A DNA stretch of 64,000 nt from the NCBI RefSeq assembly GCF_014304815.1, contig NZ_CP047958.1, forward strand, positions 186,001-250,000. The letters are read 5' to 3'. The position numbers were made by a program, and so were the translations under genes. Under the pieces are notes generated by a model. The model worked only from the letters and a program-made list of their open reading frames with translations, did no database searches and was not told where the DNA came from. This DNA is from Synechococcus sp. MIT S9220. GTDB taxonomy: Bacteria > Cyanobacteriota > Cyanobacteriia > PCC-6307 > Cyanobiaceae. Positions 5,359 through 52,239 of the stretch are shown in pieces (position 1 is the first letter of the stretch; every line of letters starts with the position of its first letter).

Positions 5359-6449
5359 TGGCTAGCCCCTTGCTGTTCAGACCACTTGAGCATGGTTTGC
5401 AGGCGTGCGGCGTATGTGTTTTCTGGTTTGCGCAATGCCTCAGATCCCAACTTTCGCAGGTGTTGACGCAACTTTGGGTGGATCATTAAATGCTGGACCT
5501 TTTCCCGTAGTTGCTTTGGGGTCTTAAAGAAACCTTCATTTGGATAATTGGGAAGTAGTTCGCGGTGTTCGCTTGAATCTTGGTATAAGCCACAACCGCC
5601 GATAGCTCCAATCTCATAGGAACGGTCAGTCGAGAGATCACGATTGGAATCACGGAGTAGACCCAGCACGATGTCAGCATTTTGAATGGCACTGCAGTAT
5701 TGCTCTCCTGTTACAGCGGGTTGTTTATCCCAGCCTGGAGTACTTAATCCCTTCCAATTGTTTCCGTGGATGCGTCGCTTTAACCCAGGTAAATTTTCTA
5801 GGGTTGCTAGCCATGGGAGTCTTTCTGCTGCACCCGTGCCGACGAATAAAACATTTGGCTCATTTAAAGTTAAATTCCGTTCTGTTGCGTGATGCAGAGT
5901 GGGGTCGTAAGCAAATGGAAGCCAACTCGTGGAGGGGGTTCCAGCCATCTCCAGCCTGCTGCAGAGAGCTTTTTTTGTGCTGAAGATGTGGTCATACAAC
6001 GGCAGGTTTCGCAGAAAGCTTCGCCGGCGATGGATGGGGTTCCAGGGATCATCTGTTAGGTAATTGATAATATGTGCTTTCTGGTTATGTAACTCATGGA
6101 ATATCTCGCTTTTTAACGGGAGTACTCCTGTTACCAGGACAAGTTTTGGTTTTGAGAAACGGATTTGACGGAGTAACTCATTCTGAAATCTCCACCACTC
6201 CCAGCTGCGGCGATCAGCAAGGCGAAAGAACACTTTCCCTCTTAGTCGTTGCATCGAGGGAGAGTAAGTAACTGCCGGTGAGGTGTAGGCCACCTGAATA
6301 TCTCTTCCGGGTTCAAGCCCCAGGCTCGTTGCGCCGTTCATCAGCTTGCTTCCAAGGGCTTCAGGGACACTTGTATCGGCGATCATGAGCAGGGGAAGTT
6401 GCTCCACAACTTGTCGTGTTTGGCTTGTTTGCTCGATAGTCTCGTGCAA
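5355..6449 (-). CDS. CgeB-like glycosyltransferase
   Basis: A 364-residue protein with a C-terminal CgeB-type donor domain: VLFVGTGAAERLPWLATLE opens it, and RSYEIGAIGGCGLYQDSSEHR holds the glutamate/glycine-rich loop, close in kind to the partial gene at 1-965. The N-terminal domain has LLMIADTSVPEALG as its first strand. The longest reading uses a TTG at 6449 whose codon lies against the ATG of uvrD on the other strand, leaving no promoter space. The ATG at codon 22 would cut into the first beta strand, so an intermediate or TTG start is likely. First gene of the minus-strand operon that runs to the left edge. Confidence 0.75.
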   Translation of the reverse strand: MHETIEQTSQTRQVVEQLPLLMIADTSVPEALGSKLMNGATSLGLEPGRDIQVAYTSPAVTYSPSMQRLRGKVFFRLADRRSWEWWRFQNELLRQIRFSKPKLVLVTGVLPLKSEIFHELHNQKAHIINYLTDDPWNPIHRRRSFLRNLPLYDHIFSTKKALCSRLEMAGTPSTSWLPFAYDPTLHHATERNLTLNEPNVLFVGTGAAERLPWLATLENLPGLKRRIHGNNWKGLSTPGWDKQPAVTGEQYCSAIQNADIVLGLLRDSNRDLSTDRSYEIGAIGGCGLYQDSSEHRELLPNYPNEGFFKTPKQLREKVQHLMIHPKLRQHLRKLGSEALRKPENTYAARLQTMLKWSEQQGASQ

Positions 6450-8860
6450 TGAGCTTCCTTGCAGGACTAAACGACGCCCAGCGGCGGGCGGTGGATCATC
6501 ACGAAGGCCCCCTTTTGGTGGTCGCCGGAGCAGGTAGTGGCAAAACTCGCGCCCTCACCCATCGCATCGCCCATCTGATCGGTGAACACGGAGCGGATCC
6601 GTCTCAGATCCTTGCCGTGACGTTTACCAACAAGGCAGCCCGGGAAATGAAGGAGCGGCTTGAGCTGCTCCTTGCTCAACGCCTAGCCCAGAGTCAATTC
6701 GGGCAGCCCTGGAGCACGTTGCCTCCGGTCGAGCAGCGACAGCTGCGATCGCGGATCTATCGCGAGGTCACCAAGGAGCTTTGGATCGGTACCTTTCACG
6801 CGTTGTTTGCGCGCATGCTGCGCTACGACATCGACAAATTTAAAGACAATGAGGGACTCACCTGGACAAAGCAGTTTTCGATTTACGACGAAGCCGACGC
6901 GCAGAGCCTCGTCAAGGAGATCGTGACCCAGGAGCTGCAGCTCGATCCCAAGCGCTTTGAGCCCAAGAAGGTGCGTTGGGCGATCAGCAATGCCAAAAAT
7001 CAAGGCTGGCTTCCGGACCAGATGGAAGCCAACTCTGAAGGGCAGCGGGGCAAGCTTGCAGCTGATGTCTACCGCCGCTACCGCAAGGCGCTGGCCGCCA
7101 ATAATGCACTTGATTTCGATGATCTGCTGCTCCTTCCCGTGCAGTTGCTGCAGCAAAACGAGCAGGTGCGCAGCTACTGGCATCGCCGTTTCGCTCACGT
7201 ACTGGTGGATGAATATCAAGACACCAACCGCACGCAGTACGACCTGATCAAGCTGCTGGTGACCGATGGCAAGGATCCACAGGTTTATGACAACTGGTCG
7301 GGGCGTTCGGTGTTCGTGGTGGGTGACGCCGACCAGAGCATTTACAGCTTCCGTGCTGCCGATTTCACCATCCTGATGGGCTTTCAGGACGACTTCGGCG
7401 ACCAAGCGCCGGACGATTCCACGCGGACCATGGTGAAGCTGGAGGAGAACTATCGATCTACCTCCACGATCTTGGAGGCGGCCAATGCCCTGATTTCCAA
7501 CAACAGCGAGCGCATCGATAAGGTGTTGCTTCCCACCCGTGGCGAAGGGGAACTGATTTCGCTGACCCGCTGCGATGACGAGATTGCGGAGGCCGAAGCT
7601 GTGGTGCATCGGCTACGCATGATGGAAGCTGCCAACCCCGAACTGAGCTGGGGTGATATGGCCTGCCTGTATCGCACTAACGCTCAGTCGAGGGCACTTG
7701 AGGAATCATTGGTGCGTTGGCGCATCCCCTACGTGGTTGTGGGCGGTCTGCGCTTCTACGACCGACGCGAGATTAAGGATGTGCTCGGCTATCTGCGCTT
7801 GATAATCAACCCGGCTGACACCGTCAGCCTGTTGAGAGTCATCAACGTTCCCAAGCGCGGCATTGGTAAAACCACGATCCAGCGGCTCACGGATGCGGCT
7901 AATCAGCTGGGAATCCCACTTTGGGATGTAGTTAGTGATCCTGAAGCGGTGCGCTCCTTGGGAGGCCGCTCTGCCAAAGGGCTATTGCAGTTCTGTGAAT
8001 TGATTAATGATCTGCGCGAGTGCGTTCACAACAAGGCGCCATCAGAACTGATTCAGCAGGTGATGGAGCAGAGCGGCTACGTGAGCGAGCTGATCATGGA
8101 GGGCACCGATGAAGCGGAGGAACGCCGCCGCAATCTTCAGGAGCTGGTTAATGCTGGCCTTCAGTACCAGGAAGAGAACGATGAGGGTGATCTCGAGGGC
8201 TTCCTGGCCTCAGCAGCACTTGCCAGTGATGCCGACAGCAAAGACACGTCCGCTGACCGGGTGACGTTGATGACCCTGCACAGCAGCAAGGGCCTTGAGT
8301 TTCCTGTGGTATGTCTGGTGGGGATGGAGCAGGGACTTTTCCCCAGCTATCGATCGCTGGACGATCCAGCTTCATTAGAGGAAGAGCGTCGGCTCTGTTA
8401 TGTAGGCATCACCCGTGCCAAAGAACGACTGTTTCTATCCCATGCCAGCGAGCGTCGTCTCTGGGGCGGGATGCGTGAACCGGCAGTGCCCAGTGTTTTT
8501 CTATCCGAACTACCGGAAGGGTTGGTGCAGGGTGAAATTCCTCGCTCTGGCGGGGCTGCGATCCGTCGTGAACAACGGCTGGAGCGACTCACTCGTGTGG
8601 ATCGAGACGACAGTCGCCGCATCTATGCTGGCGGTGCCGCTGGATCTCCAGCCAATGCGGTACGGCGTCGCCAGGCTGGTCCTGCTCCTGGAAAGAGCTG
8701 GGAGGTTGGGGATCAGGTGAACCACGCCAGTTTTGGCATCGGCGAAATCACTCACACGTTCGGGAGTGGCGAGAAGGTGTCGATCGCTGTGAAATTTGCC
8801 GGCATGGGACCCAAGATTCTTGATCCACGTCTCGCTCCGATTGAAGCCCTCGACAGCTGA
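6449..8860 (+). CDS. pcrA: UvrD/PcrA superfamily 1A DNA helicase
   Basis: An 803-residue 3'-5' helicase of full family length. Motifs appear in order: Walker A GAGSGKTRALTHRIAHLI (about residue 29), Ia AVTFTNKAAREMKERL, Walker B LVDEYQDTNRTQYD, motif III GDADQSIYSFRAADF, IV EENYRSTSTI, V TLMTLHSSKGLEFPVV and VI YVGITRAKERLFLSHA. The C-terminus carries the small tudor-like RNA-polymerase-binding module (GDQVNHASFGIGEITHTFGS). It acts in nucleotide excision and mismatch repair and in removing blocked complexes. The gene is part of the conserved backbone: GC-rich and normal in codon use. A degraded copy of its last codons is found again at 52395-52614. Confidence 0.96.
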   Translation: MSFLAGLNDAQRRAVDHHEGPLLVVAGAGSGKTRALTHRIAHLIGEHGADPSQILAVTFTNKAAREMKERLELLLAQRLAQSQFGQPWSTLPPVEQRQLRSRIYREVTKELWIGTFHALFARMLRYDIDKFKDNEGLTWTKQFSIYDEADAQSLVKEIVTQELQLDPKRFEPKKVRWAISNAKNQGWLPDQMEANSEGQRGKLAADVYRRYRKALAANNALDFDDLLLLPVQLLQQNEQVRSYWHRRFAHVLVDEYQDTNRTQYDLIKLLVTDGKDPQVYDNWSGRSVFVVGDADQSIYSFRAADFTILMGFQDDFGDQAPDDSTRTMVKLEENYRSTSTILEAANALISNNSERIDKVLLPTRGEGELISLTRCDDEIAEAEAVVHRLRMMEAANPELSWGDMACLYRTNAQSRALEESLVRWRIPYVVVGGLRFYDRREIKDVLGYLRLIINPADTVSLLRVINVPKRGIGKTTIQRLTDAANQLGIPLWDVVSDPEAVRSLGGRSAKGLLQFCELINDLRECVHNKAPSELIQQVMEQSGYVSELIMEGTDEAEERRRNLQELVNAGLQYQEENDEGDLEGFLASAALASDADSKDTSADRVTLMTLHSSKGLEFPVVCLVGMEQGLFPSYRSLDDPASLEEERRLCYVGITRAKERLFLSHASERRLWGGMREPAVPSVFLSELPEGLVQGEIPRSGGAAIRREQRLERLTRVDRDDSRRIYAGGAAGSPANAVRRRQAGPAPGKSWEVGDQVNHASFGIGEITHTFGSGEKVSIAVKFAGMGPKILDPRLAPIEALDS

Positions 8861-8902
8861 TTCCGTACTGCATCAGCATGGTTTCACGTTGGCGATTTTC
8901 CT

Positions 8903-9190
8903 CTAAGGGGCGTGAGGTTGAGACCTCATAATTTTCGAGATGTTGGATTGCATGCTGATCAGGAGCGATCTACATGTCTGTGTATCCACCAGTAGCTCCA
9001 GTTGAGCTTGATGCTGCTCACAGACCGAATTGATTGTGGTCTGCTCTAGATTCACAAACTTCTCATCCAGCATGGCTCAGGCTCACTGGATTGGTGGTAG
9101 CCAGACTACTTATACAGCTCTTGGCAGATAGCAAGAGAGCACCTGAGAGTCTCGGGATCTCTGGGCTGCTGAACATCACTTCAAGTCCAA
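8903..9190 (-). pseudogene. selD: Decayed C-terminal fragment of selD
   Basis: Read on the minus strand, this gene-free stretch aligns with the C-terminus of the intact SelD fusion encoded at 48472-50619. The best part, LELLVDTQTCRSLLIS, matches LELLVDPQTCGPLLIS of the intact protein. Upstream, GALLLSAKSCISSLA matches GTLPLLEKGYTSSLA, and EVMFSSPEIP matches RVVLKSHAIP. There is one frameshift near 9073 and no start region, so it cannot make an enzyme. A minus-strand reading frame of 56 codons (8903-9073) survives by chance. The junction to the galE remnant lies near 9190 and joins the middle of galE directly to the last third of selD, so an internal deletion has occurred. Confidence 0.88.
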
Positions 9191-9330
9191 GGAGCGCAGA
9201 GGTTCTCGCACCGATTTCCCGACGTTTCAACCACGTAAAATGTATTGGTGATCCATTTGACCAATCTAAGGAGAGAACGTCACTTAATATTTCCCCAAGA
9301 ATGTGAAGCACGTATGCCACCTTTGCGAAC
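9191..9330 (-). pseudogene. galE: Decayed internal fragment of galE
   Basis: The plus-strand run gcgcagaggttctcgcaccg at 9194-9213 is identical to 51358-51377 inside the intact galE, and the match resumes with aaaatgtat. In translation, PIHFTWLK corresponds to VIHFAGLK, which precedes a serine-rich stretch in GalE. A two-base loss after that shifts the frame. The outer (5') boundary of the homology is hard to place because similarity fades towards 9330. Together with the adjacent selD fragment it preserves the order of the intact pair at the other side of the island. Confidence 0.85.
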
Positions 9331-9912
9331 TACGAGTCGTTATCTCTAAAAGTCCTAGTCAGGAATAATGCCCGCCAATAAAGCGGCTTTGTAATTAAAT
9401 CGCTTTGGTAGAGCTGAAGTTATCATTTATTCTAGATCGAACCTATGTCGATGAAAACCAATCAAGAAGAACTTCCAGCAAAAGATGATCCTCGGGCCGC
9501 AAATTTCCCCCTTGGCAATTATTATTTGACAAATAAACTACGCCGTGGCAAGGGATTTGCAGTATTTTTTAAATTTAACAGATAAAGCCTTTGGTTGGTC
9601 AATTTCAGGTTTCGAAAATGCATTAGAGAGTGGAATTAAATTGTTGACGCTGAAGTTTGGCTGGCATATTTAATGCGTAAGTAGTTGTGATCGTTAGGGC
9701 GTATAAAGACGTAACTAATGCAAGCGCTTAGCCGTGAAACAAAAAGAAAAAATAATGCTATTAATCAATAAAGGAAAAATCTTAAAAAATAATTAAAAAT
9801 GCTTTTAATTTATTCAGATTTGAGCTAACAATAACAATTGCTTTAAAGGCATGCATGCAATGGTAATATTGCAATCTAGGCTACTACTGGTGAAATTCAC
9901 TGCTTTTGCTCA
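9331..9912. other. AT-rich intergenic region before the island
   Basis: About 580 bases between the galE remnant and pseB. Base composition falls to AT-rich here, so this is the left edge of the island. I see no tRNA, integrase site or perfect direct repeat. It must contain the promoter of the long plus-strand island operon, but no convincing -35/-10 pair could be fixed. A small palindrome gcatgcatgc lies at about 9850, followed by gcaat..attgc, some 50 bases before the pseB start; this could be an operator but is unproven. One 46-codon frame (9445-9585) is listed separately. Confidence 0.5.
9445..9585 (+). CDS. Possible 46-residue small protein
   Basis: An ATG at 9445 (alternative ATG at 9451) opens a frame of 46 codons ending at TAA 9583-9585. 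The product is polar at the N-terminus (MSMKTNQEELPAKDDPRAAN) and basic/aromatic at the C-terminus (LRRGKGFAVFFKFN). It could be a small protein or the N-terminal remnant of a longer gene. I recognise no family, and a frame this short can arise by chance. It lies in the gap just before the island. Confidence 0.25.
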   Translation: MSMKTNQEELPAKDDPRAANFPLGNYYLTNKLRRGKGFAVFFKFNR

Positions 9913-10932
9913 ATGCCATTTGATTCTTCGTCTAAAATACTTATTACTGGCGGTACCGGAAGTTTTGGAAGAGCATTTCTGGCAAGAATATTGTCCGATT
10001 GGCCAGATATAAAAAGAATTGTTATTTTCAGTAGAGATGAACTAAAGCAATGGGAGCTTCAGCAGTTATACCCATCAACTAAGTACCCACAATTACGATT
10101 TTTTTTAGGTGATATAAGAGATCAGGCAAGGTTGCGATTAGCTCTCAGTGGGATTGACACTGTTGTTCATGCAGCAGCTTTAAAGCAAGTTCCAGCTGCT
10201 GAATATAATCCAATTGAATTCATTAGGACTAATGTCCTTGGGGCAGAGAATATCGTACAAGCTTGTTTAGATACAGATGTAGAGAGGGTTGTTGCTTTAA
10301 GCACTGATAAAGCATCTGCACCTATTAACCTCTATGGCGCTACAAAGCTTTGTTCTGACAAGCTTTTTGTAGCTGCTAATAATATGAAAGGTAGACCTAC
10401 TATTAAATTTTCCGTAGTGCGATATGGGAATGTAATGGGCTCTCGTGGTTCAGTTATTCCCTTCTTCATTGATAAAGCAAAAACCGGTGTCATCCCCATA
10501 ACAGATCAATCTATGACACGTTTTAATATCTCACTAAAAGAAGGAGTTGATATGGTCTTATGGTCTTTAAAAAATGCAATTGGTTCTGAAATATATGTAC
10601 CAAAGATTCCTAGCTACAAGATCTTAGATTTGGCTAACGCTATAGCTCCAAGTTGCGAAAAAAAACTAGTAGGCATAAGAGCAGGAGAGAAAATACATGA
10701 GGAAATGATAACTGCGGCTGATAGTCCGACTACATTTGATAACGGGAAGTATTATGTGATATTACCTCCTGGTGCTAATGCAGTTGATCCCTTTCGTGAG
10801 AAGGGATTGCAGCTGGACAGAGTAGATGAAGGATTTAGCTATAATTCGGGAACTAATCCGGAGTTTTTAACTGTTGATGAGATTAGATCTTTGATTCAAC
10901 TCCATGTGGATCCAAACTTTAGACCTGTTTAG
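9913..10932 (+). CDS. pseB: UDP-GlcNAc 4,6-dehydratase (inverting), PseB
   Basis: A 339-residue extended SDR enzyme that performs the first step of pseudaminic acid synthesis: UDP-GlcNAc is dehydrated with C5 inversion to a UDP-4-keto-6-deoxy-L-arabino sugar. The NAD-binding loop is ILITGGTGSFGRAFL, and the PseB/FlaA1 type is shown by FSRDELKQWELQQ, then LKQVPAAEYNP and STDKASAPINLYGATK with the catalytic YxxxK. Length is typical. It is the first gene of the island and is followed 11 bases later by its aminotransferase partner. Confidence 0.92.
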   Translation: MPFDSSSKILITGGTGSFGRAFLARILSDWPDIKRIVIFSRDELKQWELQQLYPSTKYPQLRFFLGDIRDQARLRLALSGIDTVVHAAALKQVPAAEYNPIEFIRTNVLGAENIVQACLDTDVERVVALSTDKASAPINLYGATKLCSDKLFVAANNMKGRPTIKFSVVRYGNVMGSRGSVIPFFIDKAKTGVIPITDQSMTRFNISLKEGVDMVLWSLKNAIGSEIYVPKIPSYKILDLANAIAPSCEKKLVGIRAGEKIHEEMITAADSPTTFDNGKYYVILPPGANAVDPFREKGLQLDRVDEGFSYNSGTNPEFLTVDEIRSLIQLHVDPNFRPV

Positions 10933-10943
10933 GTTGCATTTAT

Positions 10944-12125
10944 ATGGAAATTAATTCGGCTCATCTTCCTTACGGCAAACACTTGATCGATGAAGATGAT
11001 CTTGATGCCGTTCTAAATGTTTTACGTGGATCAGCTCTTACTCAAGGTCCGAAGGTTAAGGAATTTGAGGATGAACTTGCAAACTTTATTTCGTCAGACT
11101 ACGTAGTCGCTCTTAATAGCGCAACCAGCGGTTTGCACCTGACGTGTTTAGCCTTAGGTATCGGTCCAGGCGACATTCTGTGGACTACCCCAAATACCTT
11201 TGTAGCATCTGCCAACTGTGCTTTATATTGTGGGGCTAAGGTCGATTTTGTAGATATCAATCTACGCACAGGTTTAATCTCAATTGAAAAATTAGAAGAG
11301 AAGTTAAAAATTGCAGAAGAACGTTGTTGCTTGCCAAAAGCAATAGTTGTAGTTCATTACGCGGGCACTAGCTGTGACATGGAGTCAATTTCACGGCTTA
11401 GCAAGCAATACCAATTTTTCGTAGTTGAAGATGCTAGTCATGCTATTGGAGGAAGTTATAACGGCAGCCCAGTAGGGGCGTGTAAATTTAGCGATGCGAC
11501 AGTATTTAGTTTTCACCCTGTTAAGATAATAACCTGCGGGGAAGGAGGAGCTGTCGCAACAAAATCCTTTTCTTTAGCAAAAAAAATACGTTTATTGCGA
11601 TCACATGGAATAACAAAAATTTCCGAAGATTTTGAAGATTCATCCCCTGGTGATTGGAGATATGAACAGCAATATCTAGGATTTAATTATAGAATGAATG
11701 ACATCGAAGCAGCTCTAGGACTTAGTCAAATCAAAAAACTAAAGAGATACGTCGATTGCCGAAATAAAATTTATCAAAATTATCTTTCATTATTGAATGA
11801 GCATGACCAGCTGCAAATGCTGGAAATCCCTCAAAAGGTATATTCAGCCCTTCATCTTTCAGTGGTACGCATCTCTGACTGCGACAGTAGAAGATATAAC
11901 CATATTTTTAATTTCATGCGCTCCAACAATATCGGAGTCCAACTTCATTATATTCCGGTGCATACGCAGCCTTTTTATTTACGATTAGGCTTTAGATTGG
12001 GCCAGTTTCCGGCATCTGAAGAATTTTCTCATAGCTCACTTTCATTGCCAATCTACCCAGGACTATCCCTTGAAGACCAAGAACGTGTTATAATTACATT
12101 AAAAAAATCACTCACATTATTTTAA
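10944..12125 (+). CDS. pseC: UDP-4-keto-6-deoxy-AltNAc aminotransferase, PseC
   Basis: A 393-residue DegT/DnrJ/EryC1 PLP enzyme converting the PseB product to the 4-amino sugar. Signatures: HLPYGKHLIDEDDLDAVLNVL at the start, FEDELANFISSDYVVALNSATSG, VEDASHAIGGSYNG (cofactor aspartate) and the PLP lysine in FSFHPVKIITCGEGGA (K194). The C-terminus has GVQLHYIPVHTQPFY, usual for PseC/ArnB-type enzymes. The pairing with pseB is the standard one and supports the assignment. Confidence 0.92.
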   Translation: MEINSAHLPYGKHLIDEDDLDAVLNVLRGSALTQGPKVKEFEDELANFISSDYVVALNSATSGLHLTCLALGIGPGDILWTTPNTFVASANCALYCGAKVDFVDINLRTGLISIEKLEEKLKIAEERCCLPKAIVVVHYAGTSCDMESISRLSKQYQFFVVEDASHAIGGSYNGSPVGACKFSDATVFSFHPVKIITCGEGGAVATKSFSLAKKIRLLRSHGITKISEDFEDSSPGDWRYEQQYLGFNYRMNDIEAALGLSQIKKLKRYVDCRNKIYQNYLSLLNEHDQLQMLEIPQKVYSALHLSVVRISDCDSRRYNHIFNFMRSNNIGVQLHYIPVHTQPFYLRLGFRLGQFPASEEFSHSSLSLPIYPGLSLEDQERVIITLKKSLTLF

Positions 12126-12130
12126 ATCTC

Positions 12131-13213
12131 ATGAATTTACAGCGTAATTTAAAAGTCGCCAATAAGGTTATTGGAGATAATCAACCAGTATTTATTACTT
12201 ATGAGGCAGGTCCTACCCATAATGGCATTGAATCTGCAATAGCTCTTGTAAGAGAAGCTGCAAAAGCTAATGCTGATGCCATTAAGTTTCAAATTTTTGA
12301 TCCTGATAAACTTGTTAGCGATAAAAATCAATTATTTAAGTATTCAATTTTAAAAGATAAAAATACGGGTCAAACAGAAGATATTAGTGAGCCTCTTTAC
12401 GATCTATTGTTACGTAGATGTCTCACTCAAGATGAATGGAAAGTCGTTAAGAAAGAAGCAGATAATCTTGACCTTGCATTTTTTGCAACTATAGGTTTTG
12501 AAGAAGATCTTAAATTATTGCAAGACATTAAATGCGATTCCGTTAAAATAGCTTCCGCTGATGTAGATCATTATCCCCTTTTGAGGTTAGCCGCAAGATC
12601 AGGTTTAAATGTTCAATTAGACACAGGTAGTTCTGAACTGCCCGAAATTATCAACGCAGTTAAAATCCTTGAAGACGAAGGATGTAATTCAATTATAATA
12701 CATCAATGCCCTAGTGGATATCCTGCAAGAATACCTAGTATTTGTTTGAGAATGATCCCTACTTTACGCGAAACCTTTCCTAATTATCCGATTGCATATT
12801 CTGACCATACGCCAGATGCTGATATGGATATAGCAGCTGTTGCATTAGGAGTAAATATGATTGAAAAGACTATTACTTTAGACAGAACCACAAAAAGTGT
12901 TGAACATATTTTTTCACTAGAGCCACCAGAAATGACTTCTTTTATTAAACGCATTCGTGATATAGAAAATGCTCTTGGATCTGACAATCGATTAATATCT
13001 TTAGATCAAAAACTCAACCGCAAAATGGTTAGAAGAAGTCCCTACGTGACCCAGTCCTACTCAAAAGGAACGTGTGTAGCAGAGATTAATGTCGAGTTTC
13101 GACGACCCGGTATTGGTATTTCCCCGGCTGAGTTTGAATCTATCCGCTCCCTCAAAACGGCGAATAATCTCGAGAAAGACTCGGTCATTAGAATCGAAGA
13201 TATTCAATTTTGA
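12131..13213 (+). CDS. NeuB-family nonulosonic acid synthase with SAF domain
   Basis: A 360-residue NeuB-type protein: a TIM barrel opening ITYEAGPTHNGIESAIALV, phosphoenolpyruvate-site elements SIIIHQCPSGYPARIPS and AYSDHTPDADMDIAAVALG, and a C-terminal SAF (antifreeze-like) domain (CVAEINVEFRRPGIG). These enzymes condense phosphoenolpyruvate with a 6-carbon amino sugar to make sialic, legionaminic or pseudaminic acid. It is distinct from the more canonical PseI at 18070: the usual EIG-x-NHNG is EAGPTHNG and the usual EKHFTL is EKTITL, so a key histidine position differs. The substrate may therefore differ from that of PseI. It sits between pseC and an oxidoreductase gene. Confidence 0.82.
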   Translation: MNLQRNLKVANKVIGDNQPVFITYEAGPTHNGIESAIALVREAAKANADAIKFQIFDPDKLVSDKNQLFKYSILKDKNTGQTEDISEPLYDLLLRRCLTQDEWKVVKKEADNLDLAFFATIGFEEDLKLLQDIKCDSVKIASADVDHYPLLRLAARSGLNVQLDTGSSELPEIINAVKILEDEGCNSIIIHQCPSGYPARIPSICLRMIPTLRETFPNYPIAYSDHTPDADMDIAAVALGVNMIEKTITLDRTTKSVEHIFSLEPPEMTSFIKRIRDIENALGSDNRLISLDQKLNRKMVRRSPYVTQSYSKGTCVAEINVEFRRPGIGISPAEFESIRSLKTANNLEKDSVIRIEDIQF

Positions 13214-13219
13214 TTAAAG

Positions 13220-14182
13220 ATGTTAGTTTTAGTAGATGGCTTTGGATCTATTGGAAAGAAATATGTTCAAATGCTAGGAAAGCTATGTGACGTACATATA
13301 TATGACCCGTATATAAATCCAAGCCACTGCTCATTGCCATCTAATTGTCTATTTATAAATGAATTATATTCAAAATCAATTACCTATGATTATGTATTTA
13401 TCTGCTCTCCTACAGGGACACATGTAGACAAACTTGACTTTTATCAGTCTGTGGCAAAGAAAATTCTTGTTGAAAAACCGTTAGCTATTAGTCTTAATGA
13501 AGTTAATAAGTGCCAACAGATGATAGAGTGCAACTCAAAATTATCTGGCAAAACAGTCGTATCAAGTCCACGCAGATTCTCTACTTCACTAGGGATACTC
13601 TCAGGTGAATATACCGATATTCTTAAAGATGCAAAATCAGGATTTTTCAGGTTTTCTCATTCCTTAAGAAGGATGAGGGGGCCTAAATGGAGAAAAAACT
13701 ATATTTTTGATCCTGACTTGATGTACAGATATCCCTTGGCTTTTGATTGTATTCATGAGCTAGATATTGCTTCTAGTATATTTGGACAAATTGAATCTTT
13801 GGAAATCATTACCTCGAAGACTCATATTTCTAATACAGTTGACTTGCACTATTCTTTGCATGTAAATCATCATGGAGGCTCTAAAACCTTTCACACTTTT
13901 GATTATAATTCTGACGTCAAGATTAGAGAAATGAATATAGTCGCAGAATGTGGCACGTTTAGCTCATTTGAAATTGGCAAGGATTCTACAAATGTTCTTA
14001 TAAGTGTGTGTTACGACCACGATGATGGAATTTCGGCTTCGCACTCAAATAGGCAGTTTGTAGCTAATGATACTTCTTTTGAGGCGCAATTTAATCACTT
14101 TATAGATTCATCTTTTGATATAAAACATTTTTCCACTTTAGATGATTCTTTGTCTATTTCAAAAGCACTCGTAAATGCTTGA
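13220..14182 (+). CDS. Gfo/Idh/MocA-type oxidoreductase
   Basis: A 320-residue protein with an N-terminal nucleotide-binding strand MLVLVDGFGSIGKKYVQML, YVFICSPTGTHVDKL and the family's conserved ILVEKPLAISLNEV (lysine of the EKP motif). These enzymes oxidise or reduce sugars or nucleotide sugars with NAD(P). GxGxxG is partly altered (GFGSIG). It lies between the extra NeuB-like synthase and the cytidylyltransferase-aminotransferase fusion, which suggests a keto-sugar step that feeds transamination (inference). No separate domain is fused. Confidence 0.8.
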   Translation: MLVLVDGFGSIGKKYVQMLGKLCDVHIYDPYINPSHCSLPSNCLFINELYSKSITYDYVFICSPTGTHVDKLDFYQSVAKKILVEKPLAISLNEVNKCQQMIECNSKLSGKTVVSSPRRFSTSLGILSGEYTDILKDAKSGFFRFSHSLRRMRGPKWRKNYIFDPDLMYRYPLAFDCIHELDIASSIFGQIESLEIITSKTHISNTVDLHYSLHVNHHGGSKTFHTFDYNSDVKIREMNIVAECGTFSSFEIGKDSTNVLISVCYDHDDGISASHSNRQFVANDTSFEAQFNHFIDSSFDIKHFSTLDDSLSISKALVNA

Positions 14183-14185
14183 ATT

Positions 14186-16246
14186 ATGAATGATCAAGCC
14201 TACTCTCCGACTTTTGAAAATCTGTCTGTGATCTTGCAAGCCAGAACAAATTCTTCACGTCTTCCGCGAAAAATATTTGCGAAAATTGGGAGTTTATGTG
14301 TATTAGAGATTATTGTATCCAGATTAAATAAATCAAAATATATCAATGACATTATTCTTGCGACAACTGATGACATTTCTGATGACTCATTATCAAATTT
14401 TGCAAGATCTCTTGGCCTAAGGGTTATTCGAGGATCCAAAGAAGATCTACTTGACCGATTCGAGCTTGCTGCGAATATTGCACAAAATGATTTATTATGT
14501 AGAGTAACAGGCGACTGCCCATTGATTGATAGCAGCCTTATCGACTCTGGTTTTGAATTATTTCAATGTGAAACACCTGATTATCTTTCTAACGTTAATC
14601 CTCCAACCTACCCAGACGGTTTAGATTTTGAATTATTGACAAAGTCGGCTTTTTATCGCTCTCTACCACTCGCCAAAAATTCTCAATTCTATTTTCACCC
14701 AACTGAATTTATAAGGAACAGTGATTTATTTCGACAAGTCAACATGTCTGCATCAAATGATAATTCTGAATTTCGACTAACTATCGATGAACCCGAAGAT
14801 CTTTGCGTTATTCGTCAGTTAAGTGACTTGGCAGGCCCCTTATCTGAAATCTCTTATCATGATATTCTTAAACTGATACGTGATGATCATCCTATTTTTA
14901 GACACAATCTGATGCATGTTAGAAATGAAGGTGCAAATACAAGTCAAGGTCAAAAACTTTGGAAAAGAGCTAAGCAACTAATACCTGGAGGAAATATGCT
15001 TCTCTCCAAGCAACCTGATCGGTATTTACCTGATCATTGGCCTGCGTATTTTTCAAAGGCTAAGGGTTGTAATGTTTGGGACTTAGATCATAACAAGTTC
15101 ACTGATATGTCAATTATGGGAATTGGCACAAATATCCTGGGGTACGGTCGTGCCGAGGTTGATGATGCTGTTTTAAACTCTGTGAAGAATGGAAATATGT
15201 CAACGTTGAATTGTCCAGAAGAAGTTTATTTAGCACAAAGGCTGGTAGACATTCACCCCTGGTCTGACATGGTTAAGTTTGCTCGGAGTGGTGGTGAAGC
15301 AAATGCTATTGCTATACGTATTGCTAGGGCTGCTACTGGTCGGGATAAAGTTGCCATATGCGGATATCACGGTTGGCATGATTGGTATTTGTCTACCAAT
15401 TTGTCTTCGCCGACCGGATTGAAAGGACATTTGATGAGAGGTTTGGAGATTAGCGGTGTTCCCTCTGTTCTTAAAGGTACATCTATACCTTTCGAATATA
15501 ATAAAATTGAACAATTAGAAGCTATCTTTTCTGACAATAAACTTGCGGCAGTTAAAATGGAAGTTGAAAGATCATTTCCACCTGAGCCTGGATTCTTAGA
15601 ATCCGTGCGTAGTTTGTGTGATAAAAATAATACTATCCTCATATTTGATGAGTGCACATCTGGTTTTAGGGAATGCTTCGGTGGGCTTCACTTGAAGTAT
15701 GGCGTTACTCCTGACATCGCTATGTTTGGCAAGGCTTTAGGTAATGGTTACGCGATTACCGCTGTAATTGGCAAGGAAGCTGTTATGCAGGCAGCGCAAG
15801 ATACATTTATTAGTAGTACCTTTTGGACAGAGCGGATTGGCCCCTCTGCTGCCTTGGCTACATTAGACATAATGGAGTCTGAACAATCTTGGGATTATAT
15901 TTCTCAAGTAGGCAAAGACTTAAAAGCATCATGGAAAAGCCTGGCTGCTAAATATCAACTAGATATTGATATTACAGGTATCAACCCCTTGCCTTCATTC
16001 AGCTTCAAAAGTGAAAAATCTCGCTTCTATACCACATATATCTCTCAAGAGCTTTTAAAGGAAGGCTTCTTGGCTTCTGATTGTTGCTATGTCTCAACTG
16101 CACATACTCAAGATATAGTAAATACTTACTTGTCATATCTTGAAAAATCATTCGCTAATATTGCTCTCTGTGAGACAGGAGAAGTATCTATTAAATCTCT
16201 ACTTAAAAGTAGACCTGCTATTTCTGGTTTTGCTCGACTTAATTAA
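14186..16246 (+). CDS. Cytidylyltransferase / class III aminotransferase fusion
   Basis: A 686-residue two-domain protein. Residues 1 to about 245 are an SpsF-type CTP transferase (LSVILQARTNSSRLPRK near residue 13, then LLCRVTGDCPLIDSSLID). Residues from about 256 are a glutamate-1-semialdehyde aminomutase-like class III PLP fold (LWKRAKQLIPGGNMLLSK, then ICGYHGWHDWYL, LIFDECTSGFRE), with the PLP lysine in MFGKALGNGYAI (about K516). No other CMP-sugar synthetase is visible in the island, so the N-terminal half probably activates the nonulosonic acid with CTP. The C-terminal half would aminate a keto sugar. The join is continuous, without frameshift. Three bases separate it from the previous stop. 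Confidence 0.85.
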   Translation: MNDQAYSPTFENLSVILQARTNSSRLPRKIFAKIGSLCVLEIIVSRLNKSKYINDIILATTDDISDDSLSNFARSLGLRVIRGSKEDLLDRFELAANIAQNDLLCRVTGDCPLIDSSLIDSGFELFQCETPDYLSNVNPPTYPDGLDFELLTKSAFYRSLPLAKNSQFYFHPTEFIRNSDLFRQVNMSASNDNSEFRLTIDEPEDLCVIRQLSDLAGPLSEISYHDILKLIRDDHPIFRHNLMHVRNEGANTSQGQKLWKRAKQLIPGGNMLLSKQPDRYLPDHWPAYFSKAKGCNVWDLDHNKFTDMSIMGIGTNILGYGRAEVDDAVLNSVKNGNMSTLNCPEEVYLAQRLVDIHPWSDMVKFARSGGEANAIAIRIARAATGRDKVAICGYHGWHDWYLSTNLSSPTGLKGHLMRGLEISGVPSVLKGTSIPFEYNKIEQLEAIFSDNKLAAVKMEVERSFPPEPGFLESVRSLCDKNNTILIFDECTSGFRECFGGLHLKYGVTPDIAMFGKALGNGYAITAVIGKEAVMQAAQDTFISSTFWTERIGPSAALATLDIMESEQSWDYISQVGKDLKASWKSLAAKYQLDIDITGINPLPSFSFKSEKSRFYTTYISQELLKEGFLASDCCYVSTAHTQDIVNTYLSYLEKSFANIALCETGEVSIKSLLKSRPAISGFARLN

Positions 16247-16251
16247 GGTAA

Positions 16252-16779
16252 ATGCAAGATATATTCTCAAACAGGCTTGTTCTTCGTCCCTTTGGCACAC
16301 ATAACATTACTGTGTCTTATTTGAAGTGGATGAATGATACTGATGTTAATCAGTTTCTTGAATCACGATTCACCGACCACACCTTTGAATCTCTTAGAGA
16401 ATATTACGATCTTGCTATAAAAAGTGGCAGTTTTGCATGGTTTGCTATTTATTTGGCTCAATCTAACCGACATATCGGAAACATCAAAATTGGTCCTATA
16501 AATAAGTATCATAACGTCTCGAGTATTGGACTCTTGATTGGAGAAAAGGATTGTTGGGGGAAAGGCTACGCGACTGAATCAATTTTGACAGCAACAAATT
16601 GGGCTTTTGAAAGCCTTGATCTGTTTAAAATTACAGCTGGAATTTATACGAATAACATTGGTAGTTTGAAAGCGTTTCAAAAAGCTGGTTTTCATGTAGA
16701 AAGTGTGTCTAAGTTAGAGGCTTTGTTCTGCAATAGTCGAGTTGATGTTATTAGTTTGGCTAAATTCTCATCGGGTTGA
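16252..16779 (+). CDS. GNAT acetyltransferase, RimJ/PseH-like
   Basis: A 175-residue GNAT protein with the acetyl-CoA loop CWGKGYATESILTATNWAF and the C-terminal motif NNIGSLKAFQKAGFH typical of the RimJ/RimL/PseH group. In pseudaminic acid pathways PseH N-acetylates the 4-amino sugar made by PseC. Two such genes lie in this cluster (also 19133), and sequence alone does not tell which is PseH. Confidence 0.82.
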   Translation: MQDIFSNRLVLRPFGTHNITVSYLKWMNDTDVNQFLESRFTDHTFESLREYYDLAIKSGSFAWFAIYLAQSNRHIGNIKIGPINKYHNVSSIGLLIGEKDCWGKGYATESILTATNWAFESLDLFKITAGIYTNNIGSLKAFQKAGFHVESVSKLEALFCNSRVDVISLAKFSSG

Positions 16780-16787
16780 TTTGTATT

Positions 16788-16961
16788 ATGAATTCCCAGA
16801 GTATTCTTGTCGTTGCTGATCTTGCTGCATATTCCCAAGAGATGCGTGAATGGCTCCATAGTCGTTCGATAAAGGCAGTAGAGCACCTTGCTAGATATAG
16901 AGGCTCCCAAGTCGGTATAGAGGCGGCTGAGGCCTTTATGCCTTTTCGTAGCAGCCAATGA
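16788..16961 (+). CDS. 57-residue protein of unknown function
   Basis: The 178-base gap between the acetyltransferase and pseG is filled by a frame of 57 codons from ATG 16788, whose stop overlaps the pseG start (ATGA at 16958-16961). The product contains REWLHSRSIKAVEHLARYRG followed by a short helix rich in E, A and F. The tight fit and four-base overlap argue for a real gene or for the conserved C-terminal tail of a larger lost gene. I do not recognise the family. Confidence 0.5.
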   Translation: MNSQSILVVADLAAYSQEMREWLHSRSIKAVEHLARYRGSQVGIEAAEAFMPFRSSQ

Positions 16962-18070
16962 TAACGGCTGTATTTAGATGTGATGCCAATGAAGTGGTTG
17001 GTAGCGGTCACTTATCAAGGTGCTTTAACCTCGCAACTTATTTGAAGACCAATGGTGTTCAGTCATTTTTCGTTTATTCGCAAACTGAATTCCCTCTTAT
17101 AAATAAATTACAGTTTGAATTTAAATTTATTCCGCTTAAATCTTCGCGTGATTACACACTATCAGATAGTTCGTTGATATCCAAGGATCCGCTAGGTATT
17201 TCTGAAGAAGACGATGCCACGGAGACTTTCAATAACCTTCTTTTGTCTAATATCTCCTGCGTTGATATTCTTATCATCGACCACTATTCGATTTCTAAAG
17301 TCTGGGTCTCTAAATTTCTGTCTTTATGTTCTGCCAAAAAAATCAAATATCCTAAAATAATGATAATTGATGACTTGGCCAATCGAGACTACTTATGCGA
17401 TATCCTTTTGGATCAAAATATCGTTAGCAAATCTGCAATGACACATTATGATTCTCATACTCAACATGGTACTGAAATACTTAGTGGACCTAAGTATGCT
17501 CTTTTATCTAGTGAATATCAATCCATACGAGCAAGTATTCCGATACGGAACTTCTTGTCGAGAATATTGATCTATTTTGGATCTACAGATCCTGACAATT
17601 TGCTTTTAAAGACTTTGCAGGTTGTTTCATCTGATTCTTTTTTGTCTATATGTTTCGATATTGTCATTCCTCTAGCTGATCTTGACAATAAAAATGTTTT
17701 AACTGCTTATGAGAATCATCCAAATTTTGTCTTTCATAATCCCTCTTCTTCCCTCGTCTCCCATATTGCAAGAGCGGACTTAGCTATTGGCTCCGCAGGT
17801 TTTACTTCATGGGAGCGATGTTGCTTGAAGCTACCTTCCATTCTTATTAAGAACGGCGATAATCAATCTAACAATATACTTGCTTTAGTTGATGCTAACG
17901 CCTCGATTGCTATTAATGACGATAGCTTCTTTTCCGTAAATCTCTTCAACAGCCTTTTCGCTCTTCTTAGCGATACTGATCAGCTGAAGTGTATGAGTAA
18001 AAATGCTGCTAATATACTAGAGGGAGTAGGATGTAAATTGGTGTCTCAAGAACTGCTCAAATCTCTCTGA
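16958..18070 (+). CDS. pseG: UDP-2,4-diacetamido-trideoxy-altrose hydrolase, PseG
   Basis: A 370-residue GT-B-like hydrolase that releases UDP from the diacetamido sugar before condensation by PseI. Signatures: FRCDANEVVGSGHLSRCFNL at the N-terminus, DILIIDHYSISKVW and MIIDDLANRDYLCDILLDQN, RILIYFGSTDPDNLLLKTL, and the C-terminal ADLAIGSAGFTSWERCCLKL with the G-x-x-x-x-E substrate-binding loop. It shares one base with the next gene (pseI). Confidence 0.88.
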   Translation: MITAVFRCDANEVVGSGHLSRCFNLATYLKTNGVQSFFVYSQTEFPLINKLQFEFKFIPLKSSRDYTLSDSSLISKDPLGISEEDDATETFNNLLLSNISCVDILIIDHYSISKVWVSKFLSLCSAKKIKYPKIMIIDDLANRDYLCDILLDQNIVSKSAMTHYDSHTQHGTEILSGPKYALLSSEYQSIRASIPIRNFLSRILIYFGSTDPDNLLLKTLQVVSSDSFLSICFDIVIPLADLDNKNVLTAYENHPNFVFHNPSSSLVSHIARADLAIGSAGFTSWERCCLKLPSILIKNGDNQSNNILALVDANASIAINDDSFFSVNLFNSLFALLSDTDQLKCMSKNAANILEGVGCKLVSQELLKSL

Positions 18071-19110
18071 TGTTGCCCTCTTTGCTACAAAACTCAATTT
18101 ACAAGAACCCACTTATAGTTGCGGAAATTGGTATTAACCATAATGGCGACATGGGTTTAGCCTTTGAAACAATAGCGGCTGCTTCTGAATCTGGCGCGCA
18201 GGCTGTTAAATTCCAAAATTATAAAACTGAGGATTTCATCACTGATAAATCAATACCGTTTGAGTATAAATCCCAAGGCAAAATTATTGTTGAGTCCCAG
18301 TATGAAATGTTCAAAAGATGTGAGCTTACCATTGATCAGCTTTCACGTCTGAAGGAAGAATGTGATAAATACGATCTATTATTTCATAGTACTCCTACAA
18401 GCATCCATGGATTGAATGATCTGATTTCTATTGGTTCTTCAATAGTTAAAAATGGATCTGATTATTTAACTAATATTCCTTTAGTCAGGGCTATGGCTGA
18501 ATCTAATCTTACAGTTGTTCTTTCTACCGGTATGTCTACTTTGTCTGAAATTGATAAAGCTGTTAATGAGTTTCGTATAGCAAAGAATCCTAATCTTATT
18601 TTACTCCATTGTACTAGTTCTTATCCTACGAACCCACAAGATGTCAATCTTAGACGTATTAGATCCCTTGAAAATGCTTTTGGATTTCCAGTTGGCTTTA
18701 GTGATCATAGTGACGGATTAACGGCTGCCTTAGGTGCTTCAATATTAGGTGCTTGTTGGATTGAAAAACACTTCACTTTAAACAAGGATTTACATGGCCC
18801 AGATCATTGGTTTTCCATGAACCCAGACGAATTACGTACCATGATTGGAAGTATAGATACTTTAAAGTTAATGCTCGGTGATTCTTCAATTGTACCAACA
18901 ACTGTTGAATTAAGGTCTAGGGAACAATATCGACTTTCTTGTGTTGCTTCTCGCGATTTACCCGAAGGTCATAAAATTTGCGAAGAGGACATAGTGTTTC
19001 ATCGCCCAGGTACAGGTTTGCCACCGACATATTCTGATCTATTAATAGGTTTGACGTTAAAGGCACCCTTGGGCAGAGGTACTCAATTAACACTCAGCTG
19101 CTTCAATTAA
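18070..19110 (+). CDS. pseI: Pseudaminic acid synthase, PseI
   Basis: A 346-residue NeuB-family synthase with canonical elements: IVAEIGINHNGDMGLAFETI, QAVKFQNYKTEDFITD, LHCTSSYPTNPQDVNL, GFSDHSDGLTAALGASIL, and WIEKHFTLNKDLHGPDHWFS with the metal-binding histidines. The C-terminus has a SAF domain (EGHKICEEDIVFHRPGTG). It condenses phosphoenolpyruvate with the PseG product. Its ATG overlaps the pseG stop by one base. It is more typical of PseI/NeuB than the paralogue at 12131. Confidence 0.88.
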   Translation: MLPSLLQNSIYKNPLIVAEIGINHNGDMGLAFETIAAASESGAQAVKFQNYKTEDFITDKSIPFEYKSQGKIIVESQYEMFKRCELTIDQLSRLKEECDKYDLLFHSTPTSIHGLNDLISIGSSIVKNGSDYLTNIPLVRAMAESNLTVVLSTGMSTLSEIDKAVNEFRIAKNPNLILLHCTSSYPTNPQDVNLRRIRSLENAFGFPVGFSDHSDGLTAALGASILGACWIEKHFTLNKDLHGPDHWFSMNPDELRTMIGSIDTLKLMLGDSSIVPTTVELRSREQYRLSCVASRDLPEGHKICEEDIVFHRPGTGLPPTYSDLLIGLTLKAPLGRGTQLTLSCFN

Positions 19111-19132
19111 ACACTCTTGTATTCCAGTAATA

Positions 19133-19627
19133 ATGAAAATTTCACTAATTAGAGCTGATAATAAGCATAAAAGAGTGCTATACGATTGGCGAAATATTCC
19201 AGAGATTGTAAAGCTTGGTAGTTCGAATAGTAAAGTGACTTGGGATGAGCATTCTGAATGGTTCGATGAGTTAATTGTTGACCCCCAGCGTCTTCAATTA
19301 ATAATATTGTTGAATGGCAATATGGCCGGTCAAGTTCGCTTCACTTACGATTCTAACTATAAAGCTGCTACTATATCTATTTTTATTTTACGCAATTATC
19401 GTGGCCTTGGCTTAGGTAAGCTAATTATTAATCAATCTTGTCTCTATGCGATCTCCTACTTTGAGTCGCTGATGTATATTACTGCTTCTGTTCTTAACTC
19501 AAATCTTCGCAGTTTAAATACTTTTAAGAGTGTTGGATTTGTTGAAAATACAATTTTTGACTGTCAGCACAACCGTTCAACAGAGACTTGCTTTTTGTTG
19601 AAAGCCTCAGAAATTATAGACACCTAA
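19133..19627 (+). CDS. GNAT acetyltransferase, PseH candidate
   Basis: A 164-residue GNAT protein with LYDWRNIPEIVKLGSSNS at the N-terminus (the acceptor-site region seen in PseH), and acetyl-CoA loop RNYRGLGLGKLIINQS. The order pseG-pseI-acetyltransferase and the short WRN motif make it the better PseH candidate of the two, but this is inference. Confidence 0.78.
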   Translation: MKISLIRADNKHKRVLYDWRNIPEIVKLGSSNSKVTWDEHSEWFDELIVDPQRLQLIILLNGNMAGQVRFTYDSNYKAATISIFILRNYRGLGLGKLIINQSCLYAISYFESLMYITASVLNSNLRSLNTFKSVGFVENTIFDCQHNRSTETCFLLKASEIIDT

Positions 19628-19672
19628 TGTTTAACAATGATTGCTCCCATCACTCGCTGACACCATCATCAA

Positions 19673-20737
19673 ATGTCCTCTAGTCCAATTATTCCGCATA
19701 ATTCAGTTCACGTTGACAGCAAACACATTGAATCTGTTATAGATACTGTTTCTAGTGGTTATTGGGCAGGTGGTGATAGGTTACTCTCACTTGAACAGTC
19801 ACTCTCTCATTATTTTTCTGTCAGTTGTTGTGTTGGAGTTAAGAGTGGTTATTCAGCAATTAAACTTTCACTTATTGCTTTAGGTGCTGGTCCAGGTTCT
19901 TTAGTTCTTTTGCCAGCTTACTCGTGTGTTGCGTTAGTCAATGCTATTTTAGCTATCAATGCAGTTCCTATTCCCATTGACTGTAGTTTGCATGATTGGA
20001 ATATTGATCCTTATTCAATACCATCTGAGCTGCATCATAAAAATCACTTCTTAATTGCTGTTAATACCTTCGGATATCCATCAAATGTTGATTGCTTGGT
20101 AAAACTAGGATTCAGAGTAATAGAAGACATTACTCATGGTTTTTCTTTTACTTATAATCGAAAACTAAAGCATTACTCTCCTTGCCTGAAAGGACACATA
20201 TGCATTACATCTTTTTATCCGACGAAGCTAATTTCAAGTGCTGATGGTGGTGCTATTTTTACTAATGACTCAGCGGTTAAGTCAAAAATTTTAGAACTTA
20301 GGAATTATACAGATTTAATGCCATCAAAATATAATTCAAATGAGGTACTTAATAACCTTTCCGCTGCGTTAGCTTGTGTTAGCCTTGATCGCTTAGATCG
20401 TGACCTGAGATTGCGCAATCATTTATCTCAACAATATTTATATTCACTCAAAGCTAACCCACAAATCAATCATTATCCCCCCTCTGATATCCCTAGGGTT
20501 TGGTACCGTTTTGTCCTTCAATTAGTTCATTTTGACGTTGATGATATTATCAACCGATTACAAGAATATGGTGTTCTCGCAGCAAGACCTGTGGAGAATT
20601 GGATTGATGATGTAGAATATAAATATCCAAACGCGCACAAACTTCTTCAATCTTCTATATCTCTACCACTCTATTGTGGATTAACTATCCCGCAAATTCA
20701 ACGAGTTTGTACCTCCTTAATTTCATCACTTAAATGA
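19673..20737 (+). CDS. DegT/DnrJ/EryC1 sugar aminotransferase
   Basis: A 354-residue PLP aminotransferase. Elements: SSGYWAGGDRLLSLEQSLSH, VKSGYSAIKLSLIALGAG, VIEDITHGFSF and the PLP lysine in SFYPTKLISSADGG (K185). It is related to PseC but clearly a different branch, so it probably makes another amino sugar of the glycan. It shares a four-base overlap with the following methyltransferase. Confidence 0.82.
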   Translation: MSSSPIIPHNSVHVDSKHIESVIDTVSSGYWAGGDRLLSLEQSLSHYFSVSCCVGVKSGYSAIKLSLIALGAGPGSLVLLPAYSCVALVNAILAINAVPIPIDCSLHDWNIDPYSIPSELHHKNHFLIAVNTFGYPSNVDCLVKLGFRVIEDITHGFSFTYNRKLKHYSPCLKGHICITSFYPTKLISSADGGAIFTNDSAVKSKILELRNYTDLMPSKYNSNEVLNNLSAALACVSLDRLDRDLRLRNHLSQQYLYSLKANPQINHYPPSDIPRVWYRFVLQLVHFDVDDIINRLQEYGVLAARPVENWIDDVEYKYPNAHKLLQSSISLPLYCGLTIPQIQRVCTSLISSLK

Positions 20738-21360
20738 ATAACTCTGACTGGTCATCTAGTGTTCAATCTATTCAGAAATATTACAGATCTTTATATGCCC
20801 AGTATGGCGATAATCCCCGCAGTTGTGATTACGGTTTGCCAGAGTCTCAGATCACAAAGTTTAAAGCTATAAGTGAAGTCGTCGATTTAAATAATAAATC
20901 GCTCTTAGATGTCGGATGTGGCTTGGGTAACTATTATGAGTTCATAAATTGTCGATTTGAAGGCGTTTCTTATAATGGAATTGACATCTGTGACTTTTTT
21001 ATTGAAAAAGCGAAGATCAATAATCCAGGTGTTAACTTTTTCGCATCAGATATTTTTTCTGATCAATATCAACCCAATTCATATGATGTTGTCACAGCTA
21101 ATGGTATTTTTTATCTACTTAAAAAATCCCCCGTTGATTTTATGAATTCGCTAATTTCACGGATGTTTTATATCGCTTCTACTGCTGTAGCTTTTAATTC
21201 TTTGTCAACTTGGTGTATTGATAAAGATGATAATGAATTTTATGCCGACCCATTTTTTACTCTAGATTTCTGTCGCACTCTTACTCCTTGGGTGACATTA
21301 AGATCAGACTATCACTCTCGGGACTTTACTATTTATATGTTCAAAAATCGTCAGTTATGA
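20734..21360 (+). CDS. SAM-dependent methyltransferase
   Basis: A 208-residue class I methyltransferase with motif I SLLDVGCGLGNYYEFI, GIDICDFFIEKA after it, and DVVTANGIFYLLKKS as the motif II region. Its ATG overlaps the aminotransferase stop (20734-20737) and its stop overlaps the next start (21357-21360), so the three genes are coupled. Target unknown; N- or O-methylation of the adjacent amino sugar is a reasonable guess. Confidence 0.8.
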   Translation: MNNSDWSSSVQSIQKYYRSLYAQYGDNPRSCDYGLPESQITKFKAISEVVDLNNKSLLDVGCGLGNYYEFINCRFEGVSYNGIDICDFFIEKAKINNPGVNFFASDIFSDQYQPNSYDVVTANGIFYLLKKSPVDFMNSLISRMFYIASTAVAFNSLSTWCIDKDDNEFYADPFFTLDFCRTLTPWVTLRSDYHSRDFTIYMFKNRQL

Positions 21361-50619: not shown

Positions 50620-51680
50620 GGGGGGTCGTCGTAGCCAGCTGGATTGGCCGATTGCCAGGCCCAGCCGTCGCGACAGATGTCGTCGAGGCTGCGTTGCGTT
50701 TGCCAGCCGAGCTGTTGAAGGGCCAGTGAGGGATCGGCAACCGTGATGGGTGCATCCCCATCGCGGCGGGCCACCATCTCGTAAGGAACTTTTCTGCCAC
50801 TGGCGCGTTCAAAGGCATGCACTACCTCCAGTACCGAAGCTCCCTGGCCACTGCCCAGATTGAGGGTGAGAAGCTGAGCCGGTTCAGAAAGCAAATAGTT
50901 CAGGGCAGCCAGGTGGCCCTCCGCTAAATCCATGACGTGGATGTAATCACGAACACCCGTGCCATCGCTGGTTGGCCAGTCGCCTCCAAATACCTTTAGA
51001 GATTTTCGCCTGCCCACGGCCACCTGACTTACAAAGGGGAAGAGGTTGTTCGGGGTGCCCAGCGGATCTTCTCCAATTTCTCCACTTGGGTGTGCTCCCA
51101 CGGGATTGAAGTAACGCAGGCATGCAATGCGCCATTCATTCGGAGCGCTTGCGGCTAGATCATGCAGGAGCTGTTCAACCGCTGCCTTGGAGTGGCCATA
51201 GGGGTTGATCGGCTGAATAGGCGCTTCCTCCGGGATTGGTACGCATTCCGGGTAGCCATAGAGCGTGGCGCTACTGCTGAACACCAAGGTGCGGCAGTCA
51301 TGGGCGTTCATGGCAGCTAGCAGACACCGGCTGCCTGTCAGGTTTACGTCCCAGTAGCGCAGAGGTTCTCGCACCGATTCTCCGACGGCTTTCAGCCCGG
51401 CAAAATGTATTACTGCGTCAACCGCAGCGTCCGCTGAAGCTGCGCTGGAGAACAGATCTTCAAGGCCGGCCGGATCGCGAATGTCTCCTTGTCGAACTTG
51501 CAGGCGGGCTTGTGATGACTGGGCATCAAGCCGGGCGAGTAGAGACACCCGTTCCAGGGCGAGTGGGGTGCTGTTGCTGAAGTCGTCGAGCACCAGCAAG
51601 TCGTGACCTGCCTGCAAAAGCACGACACATGTGTGACTACCAATGAATCCAGCCCCGCCTGTGATTAGCAGCCGTGCCAT
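50616..51680 (-). CDS. galE: UDP-glucose 4-epimerase
   Basis: A 354-residue extended SDR interconverting UDP-glucose and UDP-galactose: LLITGGAGFIGSHTCVVLLQ, LVLDDFSNS, VIHFAGLKAVGESVREPLRY, VFSSSATLYGYPECVPIPEE and INPYGHSKAAVEQLLHDLA (YxxxK), then WRIACLRYFNPVGAHPSGEI. Full family length. It overlaps selD by four bases and is co-transcribed with it on the minus strand. Fragments of this gene reappear at 9191-9330 (internal) and 54300-54418 (5' end). Confidence 0.95.
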   Translation of the reverse strand: MARLLITGGAGFIGSHTCVVLLQAGHDLLVLDDFSNSTPLALERVSLLARLDAQSSQARLQVRQGDIRDPAGLEDLFSSAASADAAVDAVIHFAGLKAVGESVREPLRYWDVNLTGSRCLLAAMNAHDCRTLVFSSSATLYGYPECVPIPEEAPIQPINPYGHSKAAVEQLLHDLAASAPNEWRIACLRYFNPVGAHPSGEIGEDPLGTPNNLFPFVSQVAVGRRKSLKVFGGDWPTSDGTGVRDYIHVMDLAEGHLAALNYLLSEPAQLLTLNLGSGQGASVLEVVHAFERASGRKVPYEMVARRDGDAPITVADPSLALQQLGWQTQRSLDDICRDGWAWQSANPAGYDDPP

Positions 51681-51772
51681 GGATCACACTCCCCAACGAA
51701 CCGACTCTATTTGCCATGGATCAAGGCCAATGGGCAAGTGAGGAACTGGATTTTTTCTTTGACTGTGGGTCA

Positions 51773-52007: not shown

Positions 52008-52239
52008 TCTATTGGCGCCTGATGGAGTGAGAAGACATCACCAAGCCAGGAACTCTCCTCGCCATATGTTTGTGTGTGATTTGTTTGTTGCGTTTTGGCG
52101 TCTGCTGTCGGAGCTGTTGATCTCCACGCACCCGCAGATCAATCACGGTCATTTCGATCAGGCGAGGCTGAGCGTCCCAGTTCTGCTCTGCATCACCTGC
52201 TCTACGTGGTTAAGGGGTGGCTTCTGATTAAGTCGTAAC

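Follow-up and report, generated by a model that had tools for sequence, protein, structure and literature searches.

Why does the chromosome of Synechococcus sp. MIT S9220 carry a broken selD-galE fragment at one edge of a surface-polysaccharide island, when an intact selD-galE pair lies about 40 kb away on the opposite side of that island? We addressed this question in the window, the whole stretch of 64,000 nucleotides that was analysed, and in the corresponding loci of related genomes, which are designated by G-codes (G000 is MIT S9220 itself and G009 is WH7803). The island occupies 9913-48326 on the plus strand, was characterized with Pfam and NCBIfam models, and has a G+C content of 32-45% over most of its length versus 52-59% in the flanks. 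It encodes PseB, DegT aminotransferases, two NeuB-family synthases, a cytidylyltransferase fusion, an ABC transporter, glycosyltransferases and a WbpM-like dehydratase. PseB, the DegT aminotransferases, the cytidylyltransferase-aminotransferase fusion and the two NeuB-family synthases, which score under the curated NeuB and PseI cutoffs, are encoded in 9913-21360, and this gene set probably represents a nonulosonic acid pathway, as predicted from the protein families. On the left, the island is preceded by an intact uvrD gene (6449-8860, plus strand) with Pfam UvrD-helicase and UvrD_C domains. On the right, it is followed by two intact genes on the minus strand, selD (48472-50619) and galE (50616-51680; TIGR01179, 395 bits, cutoff 262).

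The name selD needs a qualification. The preliminary description had called the gene SelD, and the family likeness is real, since the protein passes TIGR00476 (180 bits, cutoff 125). The fit to NCBIfam TIGR04369 'fusion_not_SelD' is far better, spanning the whole protein with 967 bits (cutoff 700). The SelD equivalog is not the best match, and the gene is better described as an oxidoreductase/SelD-related fusion than as a true selenide, water dikinase. We use 'selD' below as a short label for it.

We found that the minus strand of 8882-9246 is a decayed selD-galE fragment, in which the two genes keep the order and orientation of the intact pair. A blastn comparison of 8700-9500 with the window matched 8954-9072 to 48559-48677 in the intact selD (69% over 119 bp, E 2e-7, plus/plus) and 9185-9246 to 51348-51411 in the intact galE (84% over 64 bp, E 2e-13, plus/plus). 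Under looser scoring, these matches extend to 8954-9180 against 48559-48784 (64%, E 5e-21) and 9180-9246 against 51343-51411 (83%). In tblastn searches, the SelD proteins of relatives matched the same region at codons 610-710 with E-values down to 4e-16, and the match is interrupted by two TGA codons and one TAG codon. The fragment therefore consists of selD' (8882-9188, minus strand), the decayed 3' end of the selD-like gene (codons about 609-710) placed directly after uvrD as in relatives, and galE' (9180-9246, minus strand; 83-84% to 51343-51411), covering codons about 95-120. An internal deletion has fused selD at about codon 609 to galE at about codon 120. The longest exact run shared by this remnant and the intact pair is the 24-base AGCGCAGAGGTTCTCGCACCGATT, identical at 9193 and 51356; a run of more than 20 bases shared with galE had been reported before.

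This run occurs at only two sites in the genome of 2,424,175 bases, even with two mismatches allowed, and a genome-wide DNA search with 8864-9912 returned the intact selD and the intact galE as its sole relatives. A common repeat is thus ruled out, and the E-values and shuffled controls rule out chance similarity. The fragment resembles intact genes significantly, its frame is broken by stops and a deletion, and it is not a dispersed repeat, all of which characterize a gene remnant. Its limits are about 8864/8882-9246, narrower on the right than the 8903-9330 first proposed. The remaining 9247-9912, an AT-rich spacer between the remnant and the island, has no detectable homology: Smith-Waterman scores stay at the shuffle level, with neither a continuation of galE' nor a third remnant of the neighbouring glycosyltransferase gene (gtM, see below) above shuffles. 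The preliminary description had also spoken of the middle of galE joined to the end of selD. The junction is as described, while the galE part (codons about 95-120 of 354) lies nearer the first third of the gene.

The position of the remnant is explained by the gene order in relatives. The uvrD and selD-galE genes are convergent and directly adjacent in ten of them (G024, G016, G015, G010, G001, G021, G009, G003, G045 and G008), and in others one to a few genes separate uvrD from selD. The hisS gene often follows galE, and in G016, G024 and G001 galE is followed by a gene for an MGDG-synthase-like glycosyltransferase (gtM). Because uvrD, selD and galE are neighbours in these relatives, the left remnant is a decayed selD-galE pair at its orthologous place. 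The earlier reading as a decayed selD-galE copy at the island edge is thereby supported, and the remnant seems to be more than a copy of the intact pair: the site beside uvrD is the orthologous one, and selD' is closest to the selD of G015 (67.5%, 889 of 1000 bootstraps), with only 58.5% identity to the intact selD of the same genome. Direct copying of the remnant from the intact pair is accordingly disfavoured. On the other hand, galE' is closest to the genome's own intact galE (82%), while the neighbouring selD' is closest to G015. This combination suggests a mosaic remnant that a single donor allele would not account for, although the 69 bases of galE' are too few to decide. The remnants at this locus are all short (69-310 bp), and their affinities are thus based on few sites.

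The left remnant is one of two. A more decayed block, which the preliminary description had not covered, lies at the right edge, and the full order is uvrD - selD' - galE' - island - selD - galE - gtM' / uvrD' - ORF498 - selD'' - galE'' - gtM'' - hisS. Downstream of the intact galE, gtM' (51809-52450, plus strand) is a decayed gtM, with 51% identity over codons 1-200 and 12 in-frame stops; this pseudogene contains a run of about 12 C at about 52410-52424. At 52451-52463, the similarity to gtM stops abruptly and similarity to uvrD starts, presumably marking an illegitimate join. The following uvrD' (52464-52611, plus strand) is a decayed, displaced uvrD tail, of which 52465-52578 repeats 8705-8818 in the tail of the intact gene (64%, E 2e-8). 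Next comes ORF498 (52696-54192, plus strand), an intact gene for a 498-residue protein that has no Pfam or NCBIfam match and is 78.5% identical to its homologue in G002. ORF498 neighbours uvrD in G002 and the selD-like gene in G043 and in other genera; it also lies convergent to the selD fusion in several further genera of this family, suggesting that the pairing of the two genes is probably old. Beyond ORF498 lie selD'' (54161-54295, minus strand), a decayed 3' end (codons about 667-716) with a weak tblastn match to the SelD of G041, and galE'' (54319-54420, minus strand), a decayed 5' end (codons about 1-34) nearest to the galE genes of G024, G001, G016 and G000. A second decayed glycosyltransferase copy, gtM'' (54544-54913, plus strand), matches codons 5-109 in tblastn (E 8e-21). 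Both galE'' and gtM'' fall within 54319-54913, which repeats 51578-52186 with 66% identity over 610 bases (E 2e-70). The intact hisS gene (55232-56527, plus strand; Pfam) forms the right flank. That this locus has been duplicated is firmly established by these repeats.

The closest counterpart of this arrangement is found in G002 (Synechococcus sp. AG-673-F03), a single-cell genome like G001 (AG-673-A03) and G015 (AG-679-A04). Its order is uvrD - ORF498 - decayed selD (codons about 472-716) - island - intact selD - galE - decayed gtM - gmd - fcl - hisS. G002 thus independently has a resident selD remnant, an island and an intact selD-galE pair. We found no other decayed extra copies in 24 further loci of the genus. 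A C-terminal fragment of a WbpM-like gene, a further island-end remnant, lies just before hisS in G002 (L069 6516-6644). The right block of the window resembles the left block of G002, with an alignment unbroken from uvrD' through the spacer into ORF498, and selD'' is orthologous to the G002 selD remnant (75% over 97 bp, z 26.5). The intact selD genes of G000 and G002 are sisters (support 100/99), as are their hisS genes (100/100), so the two genomes share both the resident right flank and an intact selD situated beside the WbpM-like island end (81%).

The two uvrD tails of the window differ in type. In an ungapped comparison of 114 columns, the displaced tail shares 85% identity with the tail of G002 but 64% with the own tail of the genome; this own tail, by contrast, has 69% identity to G002 and 74-85% to every other relative. 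The displaced tail agrees with G002 at 28 sites and the own tail at 10 (p 0.005). Decay would be expected to increase the distance to G002, yet the decayed tail is the closer of the two, and for this reason the tail of the intact uvrD appears to be the replaced one. The similarity of uvrD to its clade-mates is much lower in the last 300 bp (8549-8857) than elsewhere in the gene, and a divergent 3' end is what would be expected of a recombined gene end. No single tail donor stands out, and the own tail is not clearly nearest to G015, the clade-mate indicated by selD'.

On balance, and with moderate confidence, we favour a history in which incoming DNA with an island and its own selD-galE recombined into the resident locus, after which redundant copies decayed. 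The resident locus of the lineage would have been uvrD - ORF498 - selD - galE - hisS, the gene order seen in G043. The incoming DNA, from a related strain, would have brought in the 3' end of a uvrD gene together with a remnant of selD-galE, the polysaccharide island and a functional selD-galE-glycosyltransferase stretch. Its left end may have joined by homologous recombination within uvrD and its right end by an illegitimate join of the glycosyltransferase gene to the uvrD tail at 52451-52463. The old uvrD tail, ORF498, selD'', galE'' and gtM'' would thereby have been left behind some 43 kb to the right; one selD-galE pair was kept intact, while the redundant copies would have decayed. We infer the direction of transfer, the one-sided mechanism and the order of events from the affinities and positions of the copies, and the exact history is likewise a reconstruction. 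More than one event is needed, because the sister relationship of the intact selD genes places part of the arrangement before the split of G000 and G002, because the state of G002 is related but different, and because the inserted segment of G000 carries its own remnant selD'-galE'.

The main rival, which we consider rather unlikely, is that internal tandem duplications of uvrD-selD-galE-gtM took place without imported flank alleles, that the island was inserted later between the copies, and that the spare copies decayed. In its favour, the three units stand in direct-repeat order, and galE' has its closest match in the intact galE of this genome. The uvrD tails speak otherwise, since the decayed tail is the one more similar to G002 although decay should add distance, and so does the left selD', which is nearer to G015 than to the selD of its own genome. 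The same affinity of selD' weighs on a second reading, that an internal rearrangement carried the intact selD-galE pair to the far side of the island and left a part of it behind. Transposition plus decay would give intact genes at one edge and a decayed set of the same genes at the opposite edge, as observed, but it leaves the right block of uvrD tail and ORF498 unexplained, and we regard it as improbable.

A large block of low G+C between conserved genes could also stem from an old insertion in which a mobile element or an integrase split or duplicated its target, with the remnant as a target-site footprint. The duplicated stretches, which span hundreds of bases and several genes, do not look like a short target repeat. 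There is no tRNA gene in the window, which counts against a tRNA-borne island, and no integrase or transposase was found among the island genes scanned with Pfam (part of the island ORFs), so that the signature of an integrase island is lacking. We consider this origin highly improbable.

Recombination of incoming DNA into the resident locus, the reading that we prefer, has counterparts in known systems. Capsule and O-antigen clusters, such as pneumococcal cps, are exchanged via their flanking genes. There, as here, polysaccharide genes are exchanged along with parts of the genes beside them; unlike there, the crossover here was apparently one-sided and left stacked remnants of the displaced flank. 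A one-sided event of this kind resembles homology-facilitated illegitimate recombination (HFIR), in which, as outlined in PMC3240628, one end is joined homologously and the other illegitimately. HFIR, like single-crossover integration, partially duplicates the homologous gene, comparable to the two uvrD tails. At 52451-52463, gtM' passes abruptly into uvrD', as expected of a junction without homology, and the resident uvrD' - spacer - ORF498 - selD'' is retained past this presumed illegitimate junction, matching the resident block of G002. HFIR has been described in the laboratory, with small linear DNA introduced by transformation or conjugation, whereas the segment here is about 43 kb and survives as an old genomic scar from which the mechanism would have to be read back. 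The homeocassettes of Halorubrum, islands that occupy the space between the same core genes to the exclusion of one another (PMC11078007), also place differing islands at one site between conserved genes, and their exchange is ascribed to recombination in the flanks (PMC11078007). Their flanking core genes are nearly identical, whereas the flanks here have undergone duplication and decay and belong to different allele types. The genomic islands of marine Synechococcus and Prochlorococcus are variable and known as stores of laterally acquired genes (PMC7522525). Those islands are defined by gained genes, whereas this locus is marked by decayed duplicates of flank genes. A literature search on this locus, selD fusions and decayed flank copies found nothing direct. 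The process is thus already known; the present locus adds an example in which decayed flank copies belonging to different allele types are stacked, and G002 provides another such case.

More tentatively, the locus might be a palimpsest of repeated island turnover. Islands might travel with their own copy of the flank (selD-galE), each arrival stranding and killing the resident copy, so that the stacked remnants would record successive exchanges, recurring in different strains (G000 and G002). Surface-sugar islands affect phage attachment and grazing, and their exchange in these abundant ocean cyanobacteria has mostly been inferred from gene content. Here, scars have been kept at the island edges: one chromosome holds two allele types of a single flank gene, one junction is abrupt, and a related strain is in an earlier-looking state. 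Similar scars at other islands could show whether one-sided recombination with co-transfer of a flank gene is a usual route.
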